NCBI RefSeq assembly: GCF_001940165.2
Contig: NZ_CP135162.1
Location: 1-64,000, forward strand
Length of the DNA: 64,000 nucleotides
Direction of reading: 5' to 3'
Origin: Roseburia sp. 831b
Lineage (GTDB): Bacteria; Bacillota; Clostridia; Lachnospirales; Lachnospiraceae
In this document: positions 1-41,440 of the stretch, piece after piece
Numbering within the stretch: the first letter of the stretch is position 1
Layout of the letters: the number at the start of each line of letters is the position of its first letter
Translations under genes and position numbers: made by a program
Notes under the pieces: model-generated
The model's database searches: none
Told to the model about the DNA's origin: nothing
The model's input: the letters and a program-made list of their open reading frames with translations, nothing else

Positions 1-396
1 ATGACAAATACCATCTATATCCATCAGCCGGAAAAGGCGTTCAGCTTCACCCGGCTCCCGAATTTCCTCTTTGAAGCCCCCACATTCAAGCCCTTGTCCA
101 ACGAGGCAAAGGTTCTGTACGCCTTTATCCTGCGCCGGACAGAGTTATCCCGCAAGAATGGGTGGGCGGATGATTGCGGACGGATTTATCTGTACTATCC
201 CATCTGCGAGGTGGTTGACCTGCTCCACTGTGGGCGGCAGAAAGCGGTAAACACCCTGCGGGAACTGCAATACGCCGGGCTGGTGGAGATCCAGAAGCAG
301 GGCTGTGGAAAACCCAACCGCATTTTCCCAAAATCCTATGAAGCGGTTCCAAACACCGACTTCAAGAAATCCGGTTCTGGTACGCCGGAGGGCTGA
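1..396 (+). CDS. RepA N-terminal domain replication initiator-like protein
   Basis: 131-aa product resembling the N-terminal winged-helix domain of RepA-family replication initiators found on plasmids and integrative elements: a basic N-terminus, a conserved block around residues 30-50 ending in a FILRR motif, then YLYYPICEVVDLL and an HTH-like segment (residues 70-100). The family is usually longer. Here the frame stops after KKSGSGTPEG, although RepA-like motifs (ENRT, EVRKS) continue in another frame just downstream, so the gene may be frameshifted or shortened. The ATG is base 1 of the window, so the RBS is not visible and a longer N-terminus cannot be excluded. Role in element replication or maintenance is inferred. 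Confidence 0.7.
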   Translation: MTNTIYIHQPEKAFSFTRLPNFLFEAPTFKPLSNEAKVLYAFILRRTELSRKNGWADDCGRIYLYYPICEVVDLLHCGRQKAVNTLRELQYAGLVEIQKQGCGKPNRIFPKSYEAVPNTDFKKSGSGTPEG

Positions 397-494
397 AAAC
401 CGTACTTATGAAGTGAGGAAATCACTCCCCGGAAGTACGAAAACCGGACGGTATATAGAAATACAAAGATTAAAAAGATTTATTTATATTCTAT

Positions 495-566
495 CCATTC
501 CAATCCTATCCGAGCTAATTTCTGCGGGATTTTCCCTGTGGAAAACCCCGGATAGGAAAGGAATGG
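495..566 (+). other. Nested inverted repeat before mob, candidate oriT
   Basis: An 18-bp inverted repeat (495-512 against 549-566, 16 of 18 matching) encloses a second one (526-535 against 540-549, one G-T pair). It ends 14 bp before the relaxase start codon and covers its SD region. MobV relaxases nick at hairpin-forming origins just upstream of their own gene, so position and structure fit oriT. It could equally be an autoregulatory operator. No nick site can be assigned from sequence alone. Confidence 0.45.
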
Positions 567-579
567 GGAAAGGAGCAGA

Positions 580-1524
580 ATGGCACAACACGCAATTTTG
601 CGGTTTGAGAAGCACAAGGGCAACCCGGCAAGGCCGCTGGAAGCCCATCACGAAAGACAGAAAGAACAATACGCCAGCAACCCCGACATTGACACAAGCC
701 GGAGCAAGTACAACTTTCATATCGTCAAGCCAGAGGGCAGGTACTATCATTTCATTCAAAACCGCATTGAACAGGCCGGGTGCCGAACCCGCAAGGACAG
801 CACACGGTTTGTCGATACGCTGGTAACTGCCAGCCCGGAGTTTTTCAAGGGGAAATCCCCAAAGGAGATACAGGCGTTTTTCCAGAGGGCGGCGGACTTC
901 CTCATTGGCCGGGTAGGACGGGAAAATATCGTGTCGGCGGTGGTACACATGGACGAGAAAACGCCCCACCTGCATTTGACCTTTGTTCCGCTGACAAAGG
1001 ACAACCGCCTGTGTGCAAAGGAGATTATCGGCAACCGGGCAAACCTGACGAAGTGGCAGGACGATTTTCACGCCTATATGGTGGAGAAATATCCTGACTT
1101 GGAGCGTGGGGAGAGCGCCAGCAGGACAGGCCGGAAGCATATCCCCACCCGGCTTTTCAAACAGGCGGTTTCCCTCTCCCGGCAGGCAAGAGCCATTGAA
1201 GCCACACTGGACGGCATTAACCCGCTGAACGCCGGAAAGAAAAAAGAGGAAGCCCTCTCCATGCTGAAAAAGTGGTTCCCGCAGATGGAGAATTTCTCCG
1301 GGCAGTTGAAAAAGTACAAGGTCACAATCAATGACCTGCTGGCGGAGAATGAGAAGTTGGAAGCAAGGGCAAAGGCCAGCGAAAAAGGAAAGATGAAAGA
1401 TACGATGGAACGGGCAAAGCTGAAAAGCGAACTGGACAATTTACAGCGGCTGGTTGACCGTATCCCGCCGGATATACTGGCGGAACTGAAACGTCAGCAG
1501 CGGCACACGGTAAAGGAAAGGTGA
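580..1524 (+). CDS. mob: MobV (Pre/Mob) family relaxase
   Basis: 314-aa plasmid-mobilization relaxase that would nick its oriT and lead single-strand transfer. The N-terminal motif with AILRFEKHK and H-rich residues 1-50 and the histidine triad HMDEKTPHLHLTFVP (about residues 127-141) are the metal-binding and catalytic signature of MobV proteins. The C-terminal third (about 225-305) is charged and predicted coiled coil. GGAAAGGAG precedes the ATG. It lies between the repA-like gene and the recombinase, as in other mobilizable elements. No type IV secretion genes are visible, so transfer would need a helper element. Confidence 0.9.
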   Translation: MAQHAILRFEKHKGNPARPLEAHHERQKEQYASNPDIDTSRSKYNFHIVKPEGRYYHFIQNRIEQAGCRTRKDSTRFVDTLVTASPEFFKGKSPKEIQAFFQRAADFLIGRVGRENIVSAVVHMDEKTPHLHLTFVPLTKDNRLCAKEIIGNRANLTKWQDDFHAYMVEKYPDLERGESASRTGRKHIPTRLFKQAVSLSRQARAIEATLDGINPLNAGKKKEEALSMLKKWFPQMENFSGQLKKYKVTINDLLAENEKLEARAKASEKGKMKDTMERAKLKSELDNLQRLVDRIPPDILAELKRQQRHTVKER

Positions 1525-1596
1525 TAGATATAAGCAGAAATTTTCGCCGCCTCTGTGCGGCATTGTACCTTGAAAACTGAATATGGAGGACACTGG

Positions 1597-1791
1597 ATGG
1601 CAAAAAGTGAAAGCGATATTTTTACACCCCGAACAGGGCAGGTTATACAAGCAGAGAACGGCACGCAGTATTTTGTATGTGGGAACAACCGTATAAAAAT
1701 CTCCGAACACTTCGCCGCAGGCGGGAAGCCCCTCGGTGATCTGATTGTAGATGTGGTGCGGCATACCGCAGAAAAAGCCGCTTCAACCTGA
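1597..1791 (+). CDS. Small element-encoded protein, TnpW-like
   Basis: 64-aa protein placed between mobilization and recombinase genes, as seen for the small transposon-encoded protein (TnpW-like) of related elements. The start ATG at 1597 follows GGAGGA (1585-1590) at good spacing; an in-frame upstream codon at 1555 lies before this SD and is unlikely to be used. The sequence contains an antirestriction-like or DNA-associated VCGNNRIKISEHF segment, but no function can be assigned. It ends about 100 bp before the recombinase start. Confidence 0.65.
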   Translation: MAKSESDIFTPRTGQVIQAENGTQYFVCGNNRIKISEHFAAGGKPLGDLIVDVVRHTAEKAAST

Positions 1792-1801
1792 TAGCCCATC
1801 A

Positions 1802-1831
1802 TTGATAACACGCCCACGCTTATGATATAAT
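1802..1831 (+). promoter_or_regulatory. Promoter of the serine recombinase
   Basis: TTGATA (1802-1807), an 18-bp spacer and TATAAT (1826-1831). A perfect 10-bp inverted repeat, CCCACGCTTA (1813-1822) with TAAGCGTGGG (1853-1862), spans from the spacer to just before the recombinase SD, so it could act as an operator or as an mRNA hairpin. Confidence 0.6.
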
Positions 1832-1890
1832 TGCCATAGAGCAAAAGTATTGTAAGCGTGGGTTGTTTCTTTAGAAGGAGGATTTTTACG

Positions 1891-3513
1891 GTGAAACAAC
1901 CTTACAATACTACGATTTACAACACGGCGCTTTATATGAGATTGAGCCGGGACGATGAACTGCAAGGAGAAAGCGGGAGTATTCAGACACAACGCATGAT
2001 GCTCCGGCAATATGCCGCCGAGCATGGCCTGAATGTCATAGATGAATATATCGACGATGGATGGTCTGGAACGAACTTTGACAGGCCGGATTTTCAGAGA
2101 ATGATTGATGACATTGAGGACGGGAAAATCAACTGCGTTGTTACGAAGGATTTATCCCGCTTAGGCAGAAACTACATTCTGACCGGCCAGTACACGGAAA
2201 TCTACTTTCCCAGCAAAGGCGTCCGCTATATCGCTGTCAATGACAATGTGGACACCATCAACGGAGAGAATGAGCTTGCCCCATTCCTCAACATTCTGAA
2301 TGAAATGCACGCCCGCCAGACCAGCAAAAAGGTAAAGGCGGCCATGCGGACACGGTTCGCAAATGGCGCACACTATGGAGCCTATGCTCCGCTTGGCTAT
2401 GTCAAAGACCCAGATAAGAAAGGCCATCTTCTGATTGACCCGGAAACAAGGTGGATTATCGAAAAGATTTTTGACCTTGCCGTTCATGGCCGGGGAGCCG
2501 CCAGCATTACACGGATTTTGGTCGAAGAAAAAGTACCTACTCCCGGCTGGCTGAATTTCCAGAGATACGGCACTTTCGCAAATATCTATGCCGGAGCGCC
2601 GGAGGAAAAAGCCTATGCGTGGACGATAGCGCAGGTGAAAAGTATTCTGAAAGAGGAAACCTATATCGGACACAGCGTCCACAATAAGCAGACCAACATT
2701 TCATTCAAAAACAAGAAGAAAGTACGCAAGCCAAAAGAGGAATGGTATCGTGTGGAGAACACCCACGAAGCGATTATTTCCGAAGATGTGTTCCGTCAAG
2801 TACAGGAGCAGATTTGCAACAGGCGCAGACGGCAGAAGAACGGCACAACACAGATATTTTCCGGGCTGGTAAAATGTGCGGACTGCGGCTGGTCGCTGGC
2901 CTATGGTATGAACAGCCAGAACAAAAATCCCTATGCCCACTACCATTGTAGCAAGTACGGGCAAGGATTGCACCAGTGTTCCATGCACTATATCCGCTAT
3001 GATGTGCTTTACGCCTATGTCCTTTCCCGTCTGCAATACTGGTCTGTGCTGGCACAGCAGGATGGGGACAAACTTCTGAAACGGCTACTTAACGCCAGCG
3101 ACAAGGAACGCAATACTGCAAGGAAGCGGCAGACAGCCGAACTGAAAAAGGCGGAAAAGCGCAAAGCAGAAGTAGACACCCTGTTTGCAAAAATGTATGA
3201 GGACTGGTCTGCCGGACGCATTACAGAATACAATTTCAATATGCTGTCCGAAAAGTATCAGGGCGAACAGCGAGAATTGGACGTAAAAATTGAACGGCTT
3301 CACGAAGCGATGGAGACCGCCGCCCAGACAGCGGTTGACGCTGAAAAGTGGATAGGTCTGATGAAACAGTATGTCAATCCCACAGAATTGACGGCTGAAC
3401 TTCTGAATACGCTGATTGAAAAAATCCTTGTCCATGAAGCGGTCAAAAGTGAGGACGGAAGCCGGGAACAGGAAGTGGAAATCTTCTACCGCTTTATCGG
3501 CAAAATCGAATGA
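1891..3513 (+). CDS. Large serine recombinase (site-specific integrase)
   Basis: 540-aa large serine recombinase that excises and integrates the element. The N-terminal resolvase domain has the catalytic YMRLSRDD motif (Ser19 with this start) and the arginine-containing TKDLSRLGRN helix; a recombinase domain follows (about 170-290), then a zinc ribbon (CADCGW and a later C/H pair, about 330-370) and a coiled-coil region (about 400-470), the standard order of the TnpX/TndX group. GTG at 1891 is chosen because AGAAGGAGG (1873-1881) precedes it with 9 nt spacing; the longer frame from 1858 would place the SD inside the gene. It sits next to the right junction, as expected for an integrase. Confidence 0.92.
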   Translation: MKQPYNTTIYNTALYMRLSRDDELQGESGSIQTQRMMLRQYAAEHGLNVIDEYIDDGWSGTNFDRPDFQRMIDDIEDGKINCVVTKDLSRLGRNYILTGQYTEIYFPSKGVRYIAVNDNVDTINGENELAPFLNILNEMHARQTSKKVKAAMRTRFANGAHYGAYAPLGYVKDPDKKGHLLIDPETRWIIEKIFDLAVHGRGAASITRILVEEKVPTPGWLNFQRYGTFANIYAGAPEEKAYAWTIAQVKSILKEETYIGHSVHNKQTNISFKNKKKVRKPKEEWYRVENTHEAIISEDVFRQVQEQICNRRRRQKNGTTQIFSGLVKCADCGWSLAYGMNSQNKNPYAHYHCSKYGQGLHQCSMHYIRYDVLYAYVLSRLQYWSVLAQQDGDKLLKRLLNASDKERNTARKRQTAELKKAEKRKAEVDTLFAKMYEDWSAGRITEYNFNMLSEKYQGEQRELDVKIERLHEAMETAAQTAVDAEKWIGLMKQYVNPTELTAELLNTLIEKILVHEAVKSEDGSREQEVEIFYRFIGKIE

Positions 3514-20677: not shown

Positions 20678-21619
20678 ATGAAAAAATATGCATTTGGTGT
20701 AGATATTGGTGGTACTACCATCAAGATGGGTTTTTTTGAAACAAGTGGAAAAATGTTGGATAAATGGGAAATCAAGACCAATACCGAGAACAACGGAGCT
20801 TCCATTTTAGAGGATGTGGCTCGTGCCGTTGACAACAAACTGGCACAGGAGAGCATCTCCAAAAATGATGTACAGGGAATTGGAATCGGTGTACCAGGAC
20901 CTGTTATGGCAGATGGAACTGTGAATAAATGCGTAAACCTTGGATGGGGTGTATTCAATGTTGCAGAACAGTTACAGAACTTAAGTGGTCTTTCTGTAAA
21001 AGTAGGAAATGATGCAAATGTCGCAGCACTTGGAGAAATGTGGCAAGGCGGCGGTAAAGGATTTACAGATGTAGTTATGGTTACACTTGGAACCGGTGTT
21101 GGCGGTGGAATCATCATCGGTGGTAAGATGGTTTCTGGTGCAACAGGAGCCGGTGGTGAAATCGGACATGTCATGGTGAATGAAGACGAAATCGAACTCT
21201 GTGGATGTGGAAAATGTGGATGTTTAGAGCAGTATGCATCAGCAACCGGAATTGTTCGTATTGCAAAAAGAAAGCTTGCAACTACAACCGCTGAGACATC
21301 TTTACGCAATTTTGATGAACTCACTGCAAAAGATGTTTTCGACGAAGCAAAAGCAGGAGATGCGGTTGCCGTTGGTCTTGTAGACGAAGTAGGTAAGATT
21401 TTAGGAACAGCACTTGCTAATATTGCATGTGTAGTAAACCCACAGGCATTTGTAATCGGCGGTGGAGTTTCAAAAGCTGGTAAGATTTTAACAGATAATA
21501 TTGAAAAATATTATGTAGAAAGAACCTTCCATGCCTGCCGTGGTGCAAAATTCGAACTTGCATCCCTTGGAAATGATGCAGGAATGTATGGATGTGTCCG
21601 TATGTTGTTAGAAGACTAA
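20678..21619 (+). CDS. glcK: ROK-family glucokinase
   Basis: 313-aa ATP-dependent sugar kinase that makes glucose 6-phosphate. N-terminal phosphate-binding DIGGTTIKMG, the substrate motif GNDANVAALGE, GTGVGGGII, the ROK block GAGGEIGH and a zinc site CGCGKCGCLEQYAS are all present, which is the glucokinase rather than repressor arrangement (no HTH). AGAAAGGA precedes the ATG. It is 72 bp after the PBP gene and ends before a strong terminator. Confidence 0.92.
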   Translation: MKKYAFGVDIGGTTIKMGFFETSGKMLDKWEIKTNTENNGASILEDVARAVDNKLAQESISKNDVQGIGIGVPGPVMADGTVNKCVNLGWGVFNVAEQLQNLSGLSVKVGNDANVAALGEMWQGGGKGFTDVVMVTLGTGVGGGIIIGGKMVSGATGAGGEIGHVMVNEDEIELCGCGKCGCLEQYASATGIVRIAKRKLATTTAETSLRNFDELTAKDVFDEAKAGDAVAVGLVDEVGKILGTALANIACVVNPQAFVIGGGVSKAGKILTDNIEKYYVERTFHACRGAKFELASLGNDAGMYGCVRMLLED

Positions 21620-21664
21620 AAAAGATGCAGGGATGTATCTGTGTATTGCCAGAGGTACAGAAAT

Positions 21665-21716
21665 AAAAATCCACAGCTTACGAAGAACTATAAATTTCGT
21701 AAGTTGTGGATTTTTT
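21665..21716. terminator. Bidirectional terminator between glcK and thiT
   Basis: AAAATCCACAGCTTACGAA pairs with TTCGTAAGTTGTGGATTTT; T-run on the plus side and A-run on the other, between convergent genes. Confidence 0.85.
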
Positions 21717-21798
21717 CAAATTGACTGTTTTTGAGCAAGCAAATTTCTGGTTTCAAAAGTTATGTTTGCTTCATATGAGATATTTTTCAAAGTTTGAC

Positions 21799-22485
21799 TT
21801 ACACTTCTGCACGTGCCATTTTTTTCACATAAGCAAGGGCGCTTGCAACCGGTGGAAGTGAAATCAAAATCAAGGTTACAAGTGCCTCCGGTACTAAGTA
21901 GCTTGCCTGATAAGTTACGGAATAGACTAACGCCGGAGTTCCTTCTGGTGCGAAAGAACCGAAGAAAACAACACCGGAAATGGTGGAACAAATGAAACGT
22001 CCGATTACACCGACAACATATCCAATCTGTAAGCCCCATTTTTTCTTATAAAAGAAACCGGAGAGTCCTAAGGCGCCGAATGCAAGCGGGTAATCCAAAA
22101 GCATCTGCGGAATCGTGTAAAAGATTGGTTCCATGACAAACTGAACAAGACCATAGGCAAAACCGGTCATAAGTCCGATAGATGGACCGTACCAATAACC
22201 AATCAAAGCGATAAAGAGCATACTAAACAATGTGACAGAACCACCCATTGGAAGGTTGGCAAATTTAATCATAGAGGTCACAACTGCAAGTGCAATGGCA
22301 ACTGCAGAGAATACAAGCTGCTTGGTTGTAATAGCCTTTTTGGTCTCAGCGCTCTTGTGACGAACGAGAAGTGAACCAATGATTAAGATTGCGATGATGG
22401 CAATGATAATCACAAGACCAATTGTAGTTAAATGTGCAGAGCCGTCATCCCAGGCTCCTTCTGGTGTTGCAAAAAAATTGTTCAT
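21799..22485 (-). CDS. thiT: Thiamine ECF transporter S component
   Basis: 228-aa membrane protein that binds thiamine and works with a shared ECF energizing module. Six or seven hydrophobic segments; the block YWYGPSIGLMTGFAYGLVQF and the QMLLDYPLAFGALGLSG motif are typical of ThiT. The TPP riboswitch directly upstream fixes the vitamin. ATG 22485 (MNNFFATPEG) is chosen because AAGGGAGA (22492-22499) stands 6 bp before it; a longer frame from 22509 includes that SD. The extra N-terminal membrane segment (about 20-45) is longer than in short ThiT proteins. EcfA and EcfT partners could be the module at 30544-33073 or others. Confidence 0.88.
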   Translation of the reverse strand: MNNFFATPEGAWDDGSAHLTTIGLVIIIAIIAILIIGSLLVRHKSAETKKAITTKQLVFSAVAIALAVVTSMIKFANLPMGGSVTLFSMLFIALIGYWYGPSIGLMTGFAYGLVQFVMEPIFYTIPQMLLDYPLAFGALGLSGFFYKKKWGLQIGYVVGVIGRFICSTISGVVFFGSFAPEGTPALVYSVTYQASYLVPEALVTLILISLPPVASALAYVKKMARAEV

Positions 22486-22530
22486 AAAAAATCTCCCTTC
22501 ATATTTCATGCCAGGAGGGAGTGATAAAAA

Positions 22531-22617
22531 CGCTTCCTTACGCCGGTATTATCCGGTTCAAGTAATGAGGGTCGATGAAAATCATCTCTCAGCGTTGCAA
22601 AAAGCAATGCACCCCTA
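22531..22617 (-). promoter_or_regulatory. TPP riboswitch (THI element)
   Basis: On the minus strand the element reads GGGGTGC, then CTGAGA, ACCC, TTGAACCGGATAATACCGG and GTAAGGAAG, the conserved parts of the TPP aptamer. The stretch after it (CACTCCCTCC, about 22513-22525) can pair with the thiT SD AAGGGAG, so control is probably at translation start. Confidence 0.95.
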
Positions 22618-22785
22618 GCAGAAATATTTTATTGTGTGTAACGTGATAGGTTTAGGAAAACCTTCGTCGTTAAATATAGCAACGTTAAGAAATAAAGTCA
22701 AGGAAGATTGTCGAAAAATACAATCCGGTTCGCCAGAGGATGAAGATGGAAGTTGGTTGAAGAAAAATCGAAGCAGGTCAGAGCA

Positions 22786-23253
22786 ATGGAGTAGAAAAAG
22801 CAGAAAACTTTTGAAAACACCTAAAGCCATTTAAGCAATGGAGTAGAAAACTGGGAAAAGTTGAAAAAGCACCTAAAGCCACCGAGCGAATGGAGTAGGA
22901 AACTGGGAAAAGTTGAAAAAACACCTAAAGTCATTTAAGCCATGGAGTAGAAAAAGTGTGAAACCGCTGAAAGCACCTAAAGTCCTCTAAGCAATGGAGT
23001 AGAGAACAAGATAAATGCTCAAAAATACCTAAAGGCGCCAAGGCAATGGAGTAGAAAATAAGATAAATGCTTGAAAACACCTAAAGTCATTTAAGCCATG
23101 GAGTAGAAAACAAGATAACTGCTTAAAAACACCTAAAGGCGCCAAGCCAATGGAGTAGAAAAAGTGTGAAATCGCTGAAAGCACCTAAAGTTCTCTAAGC
23201 AATGGAGTAGAGAATCCGGAAAATTACAAAAACCACCTAAAGTCGCCAGAACA
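22786..23253. repeat. Non-coding 52-bp tandem array, nine units
   Basis: ATGGAGTAG begins at 22786, 22838, 22890, 22942, 22994, 23046, 23098, 23150 and 23202, exactly 52 bp apart without any indel. Each unit also has CACCTAAAG (sometimes TACCTAAAG) at a fixed place about 31 bp in, and an AAGC-like block before the next unit; the rest varies. Units 4 and 8 are near twins, as are 5 and 7, and 2 and 3, showing copying within the array. Two decayed units continue to about 23345. The period is not a multiple of three and the units contain stop codons, so it is not coding. It fills most of the 1-kb gap between thiT and the divergent marR gene. Confidence 0.9.
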
Positions 23254-23419
23254 AGGCGTTGGAGAAAGCAGGACGTATCTAGAATCTCTTAAAGAGCCAA
23301 AGTGAAGGGAGTGGAAAAGTTAGAAAACGTCTAAAACCATTTAAAGCCAAGTGCATACAATAATATAACTACAATAATAGTTATACATTCCTTTTTTATA
23401 ACGAAAATTTGAAAATTTC

Positions 23420-23447
23420 TTGATTCTTAGGCAAGACATGGTATGAT
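23420..23447 (+). promoter_or_regulatory. marR promoter
   Basis: TTGATT (23420-23425), 16-bp spacer, TATGAT (23442-23447), about 85 bp before the marR start. Confidence 0.55.
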
Positions 23448-23533
23448 AAAAGTCGGGGAAAATTGTCATAAAAACTGGAAACTTGACTCGGACAGAAGTT
23501 TTTTGATTTATGACAGCAAAAAGGAGTATAACA

Positions 23534-23989
23534 ATGACAACAGATGAAGCATTTAACGAGTTATTGGTGAAACTTTTCAAGGATATCACGGAGATTGAGG
23601 GAAGAGAACTGGTAACAGAGGAGTTCCATGACATCACGTATAACGATTTCCATATTATAGAAGGAATCGGTACGAAAGAGGCAAAAACCATGACTGGAAT
23701 TGCCAAAAGCATGAATGTCACAACAGGCACCATGACAAAGGCAATTGAAGGTCTGACAGAAAAAGGTTATGTGACAAGGGAGCGAACCAAAGAGGACAAA
23801 CGAATTGTCTTTATTTCATTGACGGAAAAAGGAAAACGGGCTTACGAACATCATGAGGCGTTTCATAATCGTATGATTAGCTCCATGAAAAATTCACTTT
23901 CCAGAGAAGAATTGACGGTTTTAGCTCATTCTATGGAGACGCTTACAAACTTTTTTCATGAAGTTTACGAAGAAAATAAGAAGAAATAG
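23534..23989 (+). CDS. MarR-family transcriptional regulator
   Basis: 151-aa winged-helix regulator. The DNA-binding part has GIAKSMNVTTGTMTKAIEGL (recognition helix) and the wing RERTKEDKRIVFISLTEKG, with dimerisation helices at both ends. It resembles FabT/SlyA-type members, but no fatty-acid genes follow, so the target is unknown. ATG 23534 follows AAGGAG (23521-23526); the in-frame codon at 23510 lies before that SD. It precedes the DUF4321 gene by 9 bp, so both form an operon. A 52-bp repeat array lies upstream. Confidence 0.85.
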   Translation: MTTDEAFNELLVKLFKDITEIEGRELVTEEFHDITYNDFHIIEGIGTKEAKTMTGIAKSMNVTTGTMTKAIEGLTEKGYVTRERTKEDKRIVFISLTEKGKRAYEHHEAFHNRMISSMKNSLSREELTVLAHSMETLTNFFHEVYEENKKK

Positions 23990-23998
23990 GAGAATACA

Positions 23999-24262
23999 AT
24001 GAGTAGAGGGAATGCAGGAAAAAATAATTGGGCACTGTTTTTATTATTGTTAGCAGGAATTGTGCTTGGAGGCTTCCTTGGTTCACTTGCAGAGGGAGTA
24101 CCATTTTTAAGCTGGTTAAATTACGGACAAAACTTCGGATTTGCAGAACCAATCGTGTTGAATCTTGGAATCTTGGTTCTGACATTTGGGCTGACCATTA
24201 AGATTACAATTGCAAGCATTATAGGTGTGTTATTAGCGATTATCATCTACCGACTTATGTAG
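23999..24262 (+). CDS. DUF4321 small membrane protein
   Basis: 87-aa protein with two or three hydrophobic segments (about 10-32 and 50-85). The order LLLLAGIVLGGFLGSLAEG, WLNYGQNFG, LNLGILVLTFGLTIKI and a final IIYRLM fits the DUF4321 family of Clostridia, often found near maf/radC or cell-shape genes. Function unknown. It is co-transcribed with the MarR gene. Confidence 0.8.
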   Translation: MSRGNAGKNNWALFLLLLAGIVLGGFLGSLAEGVPFLSWLNYGQNFGFAEPIVLNLGILVLTFGLTIKITIASIIGVLLAIIIYRLM

Positions 24263-24350
24263 TTGGATTGCATGAGCTTGTAATCAAGATGTGAGATTAA
24301 AAATTGTATAAGGAAGATTCTGCCAGGCAATGTGCTGTGGCAAGAAAAAC

Positions 24351-24391
24351 AGGGTGTCAGGCGCTTGTATGTCTTGATGCCCTATTTTTTT
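24351..24391 (+). terminator. Terminator after DUF4321 gene
   Basis: AGGGTGTCAG pairs with CTTGATGCCCT (G-U pairs), followed by a run of seven T. The remaining part of the 357-bp gap to gdhA is A+T-rich and holds a TATAAT at 24553 without a good -35. Confidence 0.75.
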
Positions 24392-24616
24392 ACTTCATAA
24401 AAATAGGATAAATAAGAAAAATCAAGAATATTGATAAAAAACGTTATAAATGAAATTTTTAATAGATAAACTTGCAAAAATACTGCTTTTTTGCATGAAA
24501 ACTTTAATATTTTAACGAAATAAAGAAAAAACCATTGCATCATAATTCATTTTATAATAAAATAAACGTGTTGATGAACAAACAACGGCATGTTGTGTTA
24601 GAAAAGGAGATTGTGA

Positions 24617-26053: not shown

Positions 26054-26121
26054 GTTGCTTTTATGGACAATAAATGAAAATATAGAAAATGACTAGATTA
26101 TTCAAGAATAAGTTGGAAAAC

Positions 26122-26197
26122 GCAACTAAAAATAATTACAGAATTAAAATGCAATCAAATATGGTTGCAAAATAAAAATGCAATCAAAAACAATTGC
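26122..26197. promoter_or_regulatory. Three dyads at 29-bp spacing, candidate operator
   Basis: 18-bp dyads GCAACTAAAAATAATTAC (26122), GCAATCAAATATGGTTGC (26151) and GCAATCAAAAACAATTGC (26180) are spaced exactly 29 bp. The last two are clear inverted repeats (GCAA...TTGC). They end 48 bp before the satD-like start codon, where a regulator would control the two-gene unit. Confidence 0.6.
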
Positions 26198-26245
26198 AAA
26201 AATAAAATATAAGTTTTAAAATATATGAAAAATGGAGGTGCACTT

Positions 26246-34234: not shown

Positions 34235-34400
34235 TTGGATTAGAGCGGTAAAAGATGGTGCATAGTCTTTGGAGGGATAAATTGCACAAATCCAGATGTA
34301 TTTTGTTCTAATGTTCTTCCATAGTCGCAAAATAGCTCTGTCTTTGTGTAATTTATCCACTACCAAGTTATAGAACCATCTTTTACCACCTTAATTACAA
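34235..34400. repeat. 166-bp imperfect palindrome, MITE-like
   Basis: Two arms of about 60 bp: GGTAAAAGATGGT (34247-34259) with ACCATCTTTTACC (34375-34387), GGATAAATTGCACAAA (34275-34290) with TTTGTGTAATTTATCC (34343-34358, one mismatch), and TATTTTG pairs near the centre. TTGGATTA and TAATTACAA extend it outward. A third, partial copy of the inner part (GCACAAGGTCAAGTCTATTTTG) lies at about 34504-34535. No target-site duplication is obvious. Confidence 0.7.
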
Positions 34401-34549
34401 TAGGTTCTTATTAGATAAATTATAATACAAAAAAAATTTTTCTGCAAATTTTGAGAAAGATTTGAGTGTCAAAAGGCAGCTTACAAGTTCCTTGTTGACA
34501 AATCGCACAAGGTCAAGTCTATTTTGTTTTGATGAGTGAACATAAGAAA

Positions 34550-36394: not shown

Positions 36395-36538
36395 ATAATA
36401 ATCAGTGTAAGTTCTGCCTTTTCAAGCACAAATAAGTGGCATCATGAATCCGTACACTAAGAATTGTTTAAGCACCTTAGTTTAATTGTGTGGCAGTTCA
36501 GTCAATGGCTTCTTATCATTCACGAAAGGAGTCTGACT
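36395..36538 (+). ncRNA. Candidate bridge RNA region of the IS110 element
   Basis: IS110-group elements encode a structured bridge RNA in the non-coding end before the transposase gene. This 144-bp region has the right place and size, and can form hairpins such as CACTAAG with CTTAGTG-like sequence (about 36462-36495) and GCC/GGC pairs. The loops that would pair with donor and target cannot be assigned here. Confidence 0.35.
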
Positions 36539-37813
36539 ATGAAAGTTACTTATCAAACCTGTTGTGGTATCGATGTTCACAAATCTTTTCTCGTTGCCAC
36601 AATTGTAAAAACCACTGGTGGCATTGAGCCTTCTTACCAAAAGAAGCGCTTTTCCACCTTTAACAATTCAATTCTTGAATTCAAGCAATGGCTTCTCGAC
36701 AATGATTGCCATGATGTCTGTATGGAATCCACAGGTAAATACTGGGTTCCTGTCTTTAATCTTCTGGAAGATGAGATCAATGTTGTCATTGCCAATCCCA
36801 AGTGGGTAAAGGCTGTGAAAGGCAACAAAGATGATACCAAAGATTCTAAATGGATTGGGGATTTATTCCGTCTCGGACTTGTCAAAGGCAGCTATATCCC
36901 TTGTAAGATAGTCCGTATTCTCAGGGAATACACTCGCTATCGTTACAAGCTTGTTTCCTGCCGTTCAAGTGAAAAGAATCGATATCAGAATGCTCTTACT
37001 GTCTGTAATGTTGCATTAGATTCTGTTGTTTCCGATATCTTTGGGAAGTCATCCATGTCCATTATCGACTATCTGCTTGAACAATCGGGTACATCCATTA
37101 ACCACGAAGAAATCGCATCTAAGCTTCTTCGGAGCCTCAAATCCAAAGAAGATGCTGTTATAGAATCCGTCGAAGGATATCAGATGACTGATGCCCAAAA
37201 ATACCGTGTGCGCCTCGTCCGCACACATATGGATTATATCACAGCAGAAATCAACGATGTTGATAAAATGATAGAAAATATGATTTCTTCTAATCCTGAT
37301 TTTGAAAATGCTGTCCAGTTCCTCTGTACCATTCCGGGTGTCAAACGTGATAGTGCAATCACTATCATCTCCGAAATCGGTACTGATATGTCTCAGTTCT
37401 CAAGTTCCAAACGTTTATGTTGCTGGGCTGGTCTTACACCAGGCAGCAATGAATCTGCTGGTAAGAAGAAATCTGTTCGGATTACACGTGCCGGTGTCTA
37501 CCTCAAACCTGCATTAGTACAGTGTGCTCATGCAGCCGTAAAATCTGACAAATCTCCTTACTACAAAAAGAAATATGAATCACTTGTTAAACGTCGTGGC
37601 AAGAAAAGAGCCATTATCGCTATTGCCCGTATGATTCTTACTGCCATCTACCAGATGCTGTCTACTGGTGAGCAGTGGAATCCGAGCGATCTTTACAAAA
37701 TCGATATGCCTGTAGCTCTTGTTGAAAAACAAAAGGCAAAAGCTATCAAGCAAGCCAAGAAACTATTGCAACGGGAGGGAATACTTCCTCCTGATGAACC
37801 ATTAGCTTCTTAA
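36539..37813 (+). CDS. IS110-family transposase
   Basis: 424-aa transposase. The N-terminal RuvC-like DEDD domain shows GIDVHK (Asp12), MESTGKYW (Glu near 63) and DTKDSKW (Asp pair near 100); the C-terminal Transposase_20 domain has CTIPGVKRDSAITIISEIG and CWAGLTPGSNESAGK with the conserved serine. ATG 36539 follows AAAGGAG; upstream in-frame codons from 36464 would read through the probable RNA region. Intact, so possibly active. Confidence 0.92.
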   Translation: MKVTYQTCCGIDVHKSFLVATIVKTTGGIEPSYQKKRFSTFNNSILEFKQWLLDNDCHDVCMESTGKYWVPVFNLLEDEINVVIANPKWVKAVKGNKDDTKDSKWIGDLFRLGLVKGSYIPCKIVRILREYTRYRYKLVSCRSSEKNRYQNALTVCNVALDSVVSDIFGKSSMSIIDYLLEQSGTSINHEEIASKLLRSLKSKEDAVIESVEGYQMTDAQKYRVRLVRTHMDYITAEINDVDKMIENMISSNPDFENAVQFLCTIPGVKRDSAITIISEIGTDMSQFSSSKRLCCWAGLTPGSNESAGKKKSVRITRAGVYLKPALVQCAHAAVKSDKSPYYKKKYESLVKRRGKKRAIIAIARMILTAIYQMLSTGEQWNPSDLYKIDMPVALVEKQKAKAIKQAKKLLQREGILPPDEPLAS

Positions 37814-38497: not shown

Positions 38498-38822
38498 GAT
38501 AGCCGGAAGAGATATATGAAAGAGATAGCTAGAATAAATAGCTGAAATAGATACTCAGAGAAGATAGCTAGAATAGGTATTCGGAGGAGATACGCATAGG
38601 ACATGCTTAGAAAAATTATTTTGAATAGAGATACGGAATAGGTATTTATAGGATATATTTCGAAAAGCTATTAAAAATAGATATTCATAGGACCTGCTCA
38701 GAAAAGATATTTAGGATAGATACTCGGAATAAATATATGAAAGAGAGCCCCAGAATGGATATCCAGAAAATCTATTTAGAATAAATATTCGAATGGATAG
38801 ATAAGACAGATAATTGAAATAG
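38498..38822. repeat. 13-bp degenerate tandem array, 25 units
   Basis: From 38498 to 38822 the sequence divides into 25 consecutive 13-bp units with no insertion or deletion; consensus is about GATATTCAGAATA (GATA at the start and GAATA, GAAAA or AGGA at the end are best kept). Identical units recur, e.g. GATAGCTAGAATA at 38524 and 38563. Thirteen is not a multiple of three, so reading frames rotate and the region is non-coding. It fills the whole gap between the MGMT-like gene and a lipoprotein gene, ending 14 bp before the latter's start codon. Confidence 0.88.
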
Positions 38823-40018: not shown

Positions 40019-40070
40019 AAGTGTCATGGGGCTTTTTGGAGGTAGTTTCAGTAAAATCGAAAAGTGCATT

Positions 40071-40165
40071 ACAATTGAAAAAGAATGCAGCAATTGAAAA
40101 AAATGTCACAACTGAAAAAGAATGTTACAACCAAAAAAGGGGCGCCACAACTAGAAAAAGTTGTG
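40071..40165. repeat. Short degenerate array, 18-20-bp period, five units
   Basis: CAATTGAAAAAG-like units start at 40072, 40091, 40109, 40128 and 40148 (CAATTG, CAATTG, CAACTG, CAACCA, CAACTA followed by A-rich sequence). The last unit runs into the terminator hairpin of the Rrf2 gene. Confidence 0.6.
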
Positions 40166-41237: not shown

Positions 41238-41440
41238 ACAAAAAGTAAAGGATATGTTAGAGAAAAAGGTAAGAAATACAAGATAAAAATAGAAGGTGCA
41301 AGATAAAAAACAGAAAGTACAAGACGAAAAACAAGAAGTGCAAGGTAAAAGTATGGCATACGGGATAAAAGCAAAAAGCACAAGATAAAAGGTAAGAAGT
41401 ACAAAGCAGAAAGCACAGGGAGTATAAATATCAAAAACAA
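41238..41440. repeat. Degenerate 20-21-bp tandem array upstream of nuclease-like gene
   Basis: CAAGATAAAA-like cores at about 41238, 41258, 41279, 41299, 41320, 41341, 41361, 41381, 41402 and 41422, with AGAAGTA-type sequence between. Steps are 20 or 21 bp (average about 20.4), close to two helical turns. The array begins about 50 bp before the gene's start codon on the minus strand. The rest of the gap to 41667 is A+T-rich with a TATAAT at 41619. Confidence 0.7.

Follow-up and report, generated by a model that had tools for sequence, protein, structure and literature searches.

Species-restricted arrays of a 52-bp two-box repeat in Roseburia sp. 831b: putative protein-binding sites enlarged by tandem duplication

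The array between thiT and marR

In the window, the whole stretch of 64,000 nucleotides of Roseburia sp. 831b DNA that was analysed, the gap between thiT and a marR gene is filled by an array with a 52-bp unit. The thiT gene (21799..22509, minus strand; PF09515) codes for a thiamine ECF transporter and is preceded by its TPP riboswitch (22518..22626, minus strand; Rfam match), which adjoins the array and lies outside it. The gene for the MarR-family regulator (23534..23989, plus strand; PF01047) flanks the other side, and the domain search of the window neighbours also returned DUF4321. Nine intact units, each with a 41-bp core, occupy 22786..23242 on the plus strand, in the leading-strand direction. 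They begin with ATGGAGTAG at 22786, 22838, 22890, 22942, 22994, 23046, 23098, 23150 and 23202, bearing out the nine exact 52-bp steps described in an earlier sequence-only reading of this DNA. Tandem Repeats Finder placed the array at 22782-23211 with a period of 52, and also of 104 and 156. A decayed unit that keeps the 52-bp register follows at 23254..23294 (plus strand; 3.5 bits with a softened matrix). Next in register is a partly decayed unit at 23306..23346 (plus strand; 33.7 bits), the tenth that was counted. The sequence-only reading included neither of these two, nor the further arrays and head-to-head cores described below.

A second box, CACCTAAAG, begins 32 bases past the unit start and is exact in 8 of the 9 window units; the unit at 22994 has TACCTAAAG in its place, with a single T for C. 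The sequence-only reading had placed this box at a fixed distance within each unit, and its offset is indeed constant, but 23 bases, not 22, separate the boxes. Three pairs of units had been called near-twins. Pairs 2/3 and 4/8 deserve the name, with 2 and 1 differences over the 41-bp core, but units 5 and 7 differ at 4 positions.

A weak scan of the region for promoter-like sites gave 3 where 2.2 were expected. One (22673..22701, minus strand) fits thiT, with the array starting 85 bp behind it, and another (23420..23447, plus strand) fits marR and lies 74 bp downstream of the end of the last decayed unit. Other tandem repeats in the window, with periods of 13-42 bp, are at 26117-26208, 38499-38592, 40069-40139 and 41272-41350.

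A family of eleven arrays

When the array was used as a DNA query against the organism's own genome (two contigs, 3.37 Mb in all), the 52-bp repeat turned up at ten more places. A matrix scan of the fetched genome stretches counted 59 units of at least 18 bits at 11 loci, and a sequence-only profile run over the whole genome gave 60 matches at E <= 0.01, one of them partial and all on the 3.13-Mb contig. The 11 arrays hold about 60 units in total, with 1-10 counted units per direction, and all lie between predicted genes; at 2956 kb a short minus-strand frame (85 aa) overlaps the array, but we regard it as spurious. Five decayed units, in register or in cores, were left outside the 59 (23254, 2715013, 2934106, 2430758 and 2430810). 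Six weak genome matches to the unit were also fetched and examined, and no array was found in any of them.

The 41-bp unit core consists of box A (wTGGAGTrGAAA, columns 1-12), a middle AAA (19-22) and box B (rAAAnCACCTAAwG, 28-41). The exact box B pattern AAANCACCTAAWG matches the genome 41 times, always inside an array (reversed control, 3). TGGAGTRGAAA likewise has 41 matches, 32 inside arrays and 9 outside, against 6 for its control. A genome-wide search for the two boxes, proposed from the window alone, does lead to a family at 11 loci, but the 22-base gap given for it retrieved no intact unit, only the decayed one near 2934106, which has lost one base between its boxes. With the correct 23-base gap there are 29 matches without mismatch, inside arrays. 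Only close two-box matches carry signal, because the total at up to three mismatches (122) falls below that of the reversed control (193).

One neighbouring gene at each of 7 of the 10 other arrays was assigned by domain search: an S30AE ribosome hibernation factor, SpoVAC, a member of the uracil-DNA glycosylase superfamily, a phosphate acetyl/butyryl transferase, ATP synthase epsilon, a class II tRNA synthetase and an FGGY kinase. At 665, 1903 and 2430 kb the neighbours were taken as reading frames only, without domain search. Since the neighbours at the seven arrays are unrelated to thiT and marR and to one another, control of particular neighbour genes was rejected, and the position between thiT and marR, once offered as a clue to function, looks incidental.

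Between loci (1549 unit pairs) the 17 box columns diverge by 4.7% and the 11 spacer columns by 65%, a contrast somewhat inflated by the choice of columns after inspection and by the collection of units through their boxes. Collection bias does not explain it, because nearly every 52-bp slot in the counted runs holds an intact unit. When the pairs are sorted by spacer divergence, the spacers go from 26% to 93%, and box divergence, from 3.7%, climbs no higher than 5.6%. All 59 units agree at seven columns. The eight youngest pairs, each within one locus, carry changes at 1 of 136 box sites versus 5 of 88 spacer sites (Fisher p = 0.036, the pairs not being independent). Conserved boxes at unlinked loci, with spacers near random, speak for selective constraint on the boxes; had drift acted alone, it would not have left two boxes nearly unchanged at eleven unlinked loci. 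The sequence-only reading had named a decayed gene, or boxes alike through recent duplication only, as outcomes that would speak against it. No gene remnant was seen here, and conservation of the boxes extends over the eleven loci, beyond recent duplicates.

The pitch is equally regular. Of the 44 steps from one counted unit to the next, 42 measure exactly 52 bp; the exceptions are one of 104 bp, with a decayed unit between, and one of 63 bp. Arrays plainly lengthen by tandem duplication in steps of 52 or 104 bp, as the twin units within arrays attest. Not every unit is maintained: some edge and core units have decayed, and there is the single 63-bp step. That 52 bp makes five turns of 10.4 bp, as had been noted, is correct arithmetic, and all 8 arrays examined show more A/T-step periodicity at 10.4 bp than their shuffles do; in each of the 8, however, the periodicity at 8.67 bp is stronger. 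Any 52-bp repeat has power at both 10.4 and 8.67 bp, so placement of all boxes on one face of the helix is not specially supported; the argument from curved DNA or helical phase was rejected, 10.4 bp not being the dominant A/T period.

Six of the arrays are bidirectional: at 664, 1903, 2345, 2430, 2714 and 2934 kb a pair of units meets head to head, across core gaps of 13, 12, 13, 13, 12 and 13 bp respectively. Partial decay affects both arms of the core at 2430 kb and one arm at 2714 kb. The symmetry of the cores is one of sites and not of a paired stem, because the arms agree at 13-17 of the 17 box columns and at only 2-5 of the 11 spacer columns. With their boxes inverted, the cores can nonetheless form DNA hairpins, and as DNA all six fold far better than shuffles (z -3.4 to -7.2). 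No convincing inverted partner was found at the five one-way arrays, the best (181 kb) reaching about the 95% level of the background. Core units often start with TTGGAGT or TTAGAGT and not ATGGAGT. So do the units that open the arrays at 128135 and 2955792, which suggests that these two one-way arrays may descend from head-to-head cores. In three core-side or minor-arm units (2715013, 2430758 and 2430810) box B is intact and box A decayed.

Short repeats of other kinds lie next to two of the arrays. About four copies of a repeat around AAGGTCACCnGGTATC stand directly upstream of the array at 611186 (stretch L012, C1 about 611100-611185), and a GAAATCTTATAGCAG-type short tandem repeat is directly beside the bidirectional array at 664683 (L009:4490-4680, C1 about 664489-664679).

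We also placed the arrays on the chromosome. dnaA is at 2,789,053. GC skew, sampled in 34 of the 41 longer genome stretches, has positive values on the side that runs from about 2.8 Mb past the zero coordinate as far as 1.05 Mb, and negative values between 1.2 and 2.71 Mb. With the terminus set by hand at 1.125 Mb and per-strand counts compiled by hand, the units of 10 of the 11 arrays point mostly along the leading strand (p = 0.012). The test has n = 11 arrays, and the bias is inseparable here from that of gene orientation. The array at 665 kb is the exception, with 4 units against 5. Counted by unit, decayed core units included, 50 of 63 are on the leading strand and 13 are not; the one-way arrays alone are all leading-strand (5/5, p = 0.06). 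No array lies between 665 and 1903 kb, the interval that contains the terminus, and the origin-side bias of the arrays is only suggestive (KS p = 0.07). The leading-strand bias, together with scatter beside unrelated genes, suggests a possible chromosome-scale role for the family, under which the chromosome-structure site named in the sequence-only reading may fall.

Distribution and comparison with known repeats

To the extent that the searches reach, the 52-bp family is confined to this species. Stricter filters applied to the searches at genus, family and order level, whose three samples overlap. The 61 other genomes of the genus gave no match at E <= 0.01, and among the 30 genus genomes (own included) at least 90% complete and at most 5% contaminated, a class outside which 32 of the 62 fall, only the own genome matched. 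Of 397 family genomes, three others had a single partial match, with no array in the 320 bp around each, and 392 order genomes gave a single partial match in one other. A strict junction pattern found nothing in viral contigs or in 84,980 species genomes, a set from which the own record may be missing, and a pattern that would pass over a diverged family. BLAST of the array against plasmids and phages also returned nothing. A plasmid or phage origin was rejected, there being no array match in plasmids, phages or viral contigs. Loci reached through the MarR protein comprised 11 named ones, from nine MAGs and two Clostridium species (27% identity). Six of the MAGs are labelled Roseburia, two Lachnospiraceae and one Clostridiales; they match at 59-64% identity, with one 78-residue fragment among the MAG matches at 73%. 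The nearest congener MarR is 65% identical, and no close relative was available to show an empty orthologous site. Among the papers listed, we found no description of the family.

Bacterial interspersed tandem repeats are often regarded as junk, or used as markers for typing. The MIRU of mycobacteria have units of tens of bp arranged head to tail at many intergenic loci in one lineage. The 52-bp family resembles them in its unit of tens of bp, head-to-tail order, 11 intergenic loci and confinement to a lineage. It differs in its rigid pitch (42 of 44 steps), its two constrained boxes over random spacers and its head-to-head cores of 12-13 bp. MIRU-type mycobacterial repeats serve for typing (PMC3294723); the 52-bp family may similarly offer copy-number markers for typing strains of this species.

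BOX elements of Streptococcus pneumoniae (PMC3049150) have boxA and boxC end modules around a variable number of tandem boxB modules and fold into stem-loops. They too are small interspersed repeats with a tandem module of variable number. The 52-bp arrays, in contrast to boxA and boxC, have no common flanks (350-bp flanks of the 11 arrays against 40 genome stretches, E <= 0.01). Their units also lack the stem-loop fold of BOX, and six of the eleven arrays are bidirectional around a near-fixed core.

The defining features of MITEs (PMC3049150) are terminal inverted repeats, target site duplication and ends shared with a resident transposase-bearing element. Inverted ends, a possible hairpin and intergenic dispersal are shared by the 52-bp cores; terminal inverted repeats are present in the six head-to-head cores, and the five one-way arrays have no convincing inverted partner. 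The family differs from MITEs in forming tandem arrays and not single inserts, with no insertion sequence of matching exact ends. A search for a transposase-bearing element with box B ends, in their exact form only, found none in the genome, all 41 matches being in arrays. Target site duplication at the six bidirectional arrays was exact in 0 of 6, and 4 bp of slack gave matches of 2-4 bp that 80-298 of 300 random pairs also reached; the outer ends compared may have moved as the arms grew.

KOPS and Chi, like the scattered sites of nucleoid proteins, are each a lone short motif that occurs at many places in the chromosome. The 52-bp family shares their leading-strand bias and chromosome-wide dispersal but consists mostly of multi-unit arrays, at eleven loci in one species. 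Its nearest counterparts in kind are the MIRU and BOX repeats, from which it stands apart by its rigid pitch, constrained boxes over random spacers and bidirectional core.

Candidate explanations and other dispersed sequences

Our best reading is that the arrays are species-restricted, bipartite sites for a putative DNA-binding protein, enlarged by tandem duplication. The 52-bp unit would be a DNA site with box A, the middle AAA and box B at fixed distances, read as double-stranded DNA by a putative trans-acting protein, copies of which probably bind next to one another with a common 52-bp pitch. Selection would act on boxes and pitch and leave the spacers to drift, with array length changing through tandem duplication or loss in steps of 52 or 104 bp. 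A head-to-head pair around a 12-13 bp core seems to be the basic element, and one of its arms, mostly the leading-strand one, may have been enlarged. The role of the family would be in the organisation, segregation or replication of the chromosome rather than in the control of a single neighbour. We favour tentatively, and with slightly less than even confidence, that selection keeps such a bipartite double-stranded site in arrays for a putative trans-acting protein, most likely in the service of the chromosome. Two boxes and a rigid 52-bp pitch that stay near-constant at eleven unlinked places, with drift in between, imply a factor that reads them. Of the possibilities raised by the sequence-only reading, a protein-binding array survives best, given boxes conserved between unlinked loci over near-random spacers; the protein itself is putative.

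That none of the 61 congeners searched has the family counts against this explanation, as one would not expect this of an essential chromosome function; the protein would need to be specific to the lineage or to have switched targets. A more elaborate version seems unlikely to us as a whole: a lineage-specific chromosome-site system in which bidirectional cores with a 12-13 bp gap seed two-box arrays of 52-bp pitch, which grow in the direction of replication and cooperatively bind a putative protein that helps to organise, segregate or replicate the origin-side two thirds of the chromosome. The reading factor, if found, would reveal either a new chromosome-organising protein or a new way for small repeats to spread in a gut commensal lineage.

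The chief rival is a selfish or neutral interspersed repeat of the BOX, MIRU or MITE kind, which we regard as a serious contender, although not a probable one. An ancestral palindromic element of two units would have dispersed long ago, its boxes recognised by a transposase or recombinase. The arms would have grown by slipped mispairing, and the boxes would now be remnants of end recognition with no host function. Such an origin fits the cores, which resemble a 94-95 bp element with inverted ends CWTTAGGTG...CACCTAAWG and fold as DNA better than shuffles in 6 of 6 cases. It also suits a species-restricted family scattered between predicted genes, the survival of box B beyond box A in the units at 2715013, 2430758 and 2430810, and the presence of at least one other family with MITE-like inverted ends in the same genome. 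Against it, outer ends of the bidirectional arrays show no exact target duplication (0/6) and none beyond chance with 4 bp of slack, and since exact box B occurs only in arrays, no resident insertion sequence has these exact ends. Spacers of the arms do not match one another, even the youngest pairs have fewer box than spacer changes, and neutral repeats would not be expected to keep to 52 bp in 42 of 44 steps. In a purely neutral minisatellite, duplication and conversion would keep the units alike and the boxes would simply not have drifted yet. Twin units, 52/104-bp duplication within arrays, and a spacer identity of 0.45 within loci versus 0.35 between them agree with this account, but drift would strike all columns alike, and boxes that differ by less than 5% between loci where spacers are near random make it improbable.

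The sequence-only reading had also considered an RNA of repeated structure, and the array might in principle be transcribed and act as RNA, for example as a sponge for a GGA-reading RNA-binding protein. The purine-rich strand with its repeated ATGGAG is compatible with such a role, and nothing positive was found beyond that. RNAalifold gave 0 conserved pairs over 59 units, and two-unit segments, sampled on both strands, folded no better than shuffles in 8 of 8 cases (z -0.88 to 2.02). Over 21500-24500 the TPP riboswitch was the only Rfam match above threshold; the sole match on the array itself, to a snoRNA family, scored 14 bits against a gathering score of 45, which is chance level. No promoter-like site faces into the array, promoter and terminator counts are at chance, and the exact spacing and head-to-head symmetry are features of DNA. 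A repeated-structure RNA was rejected for want of pairs, of folding beyond shuffles and of a credible Rfam match, and we consider a transcribed array of any such kind quite improbable. Periodic repeats in which conserved and variable parts alternate might also recall a decayed repeat-protein gene or a CRISPR-like array. However, 52 is not a multiple of 3, TAG occurs in box A and TAA in box B, and among frames of at least 60 aa none spans the array, two short ones (66 and 71 aa) running into its first unit; with no frame across the array, a coding or decayed gene was rejected. A CRISPR repeat layout was not found either, the conserved blocks being at most about 14 bp and the spacers duplicated between neighbours. 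We give this pair of explanations hardly any credence.

Further dispersed sequences and mobile elements occur in this genome. A second dispersed repeat with long inverted ends (TGTCAAAAGGTTGCT...), MITE-like and partly in tandem copies of about 79 bp, is at 34317-34540 of the window and in the genome stretches L017:846-1030, L011:3104-3321 and L013:6766-7001. It has 36 matches in the own genome and occurs in 5 others of the 62 genus genomes, with 25 and 15 matches in two of them. A third dispersed sequence, just downstream of a tRNA-Ile gene (L010:2690-2790), has a conserved GC-rich stretch behind its inverted repeat (TAATAGGAAAAT...TTCCTATTA); among 40 stretches compared, similar DNA is in L055, L051, L018, L009 and L061. 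Genes at 36464-37813 of the window and at L017:3665-4924 code for proteins that we take to be look-alikes of IS110-family transposases, and one IS110-like protein gene lies some 400 bp away from the 2345-kb array. Judged by eye, 1-3513 of the window looks like a mobile element, with replication-initiator-like, relaxase-like and serine-recombinase-like proteins.
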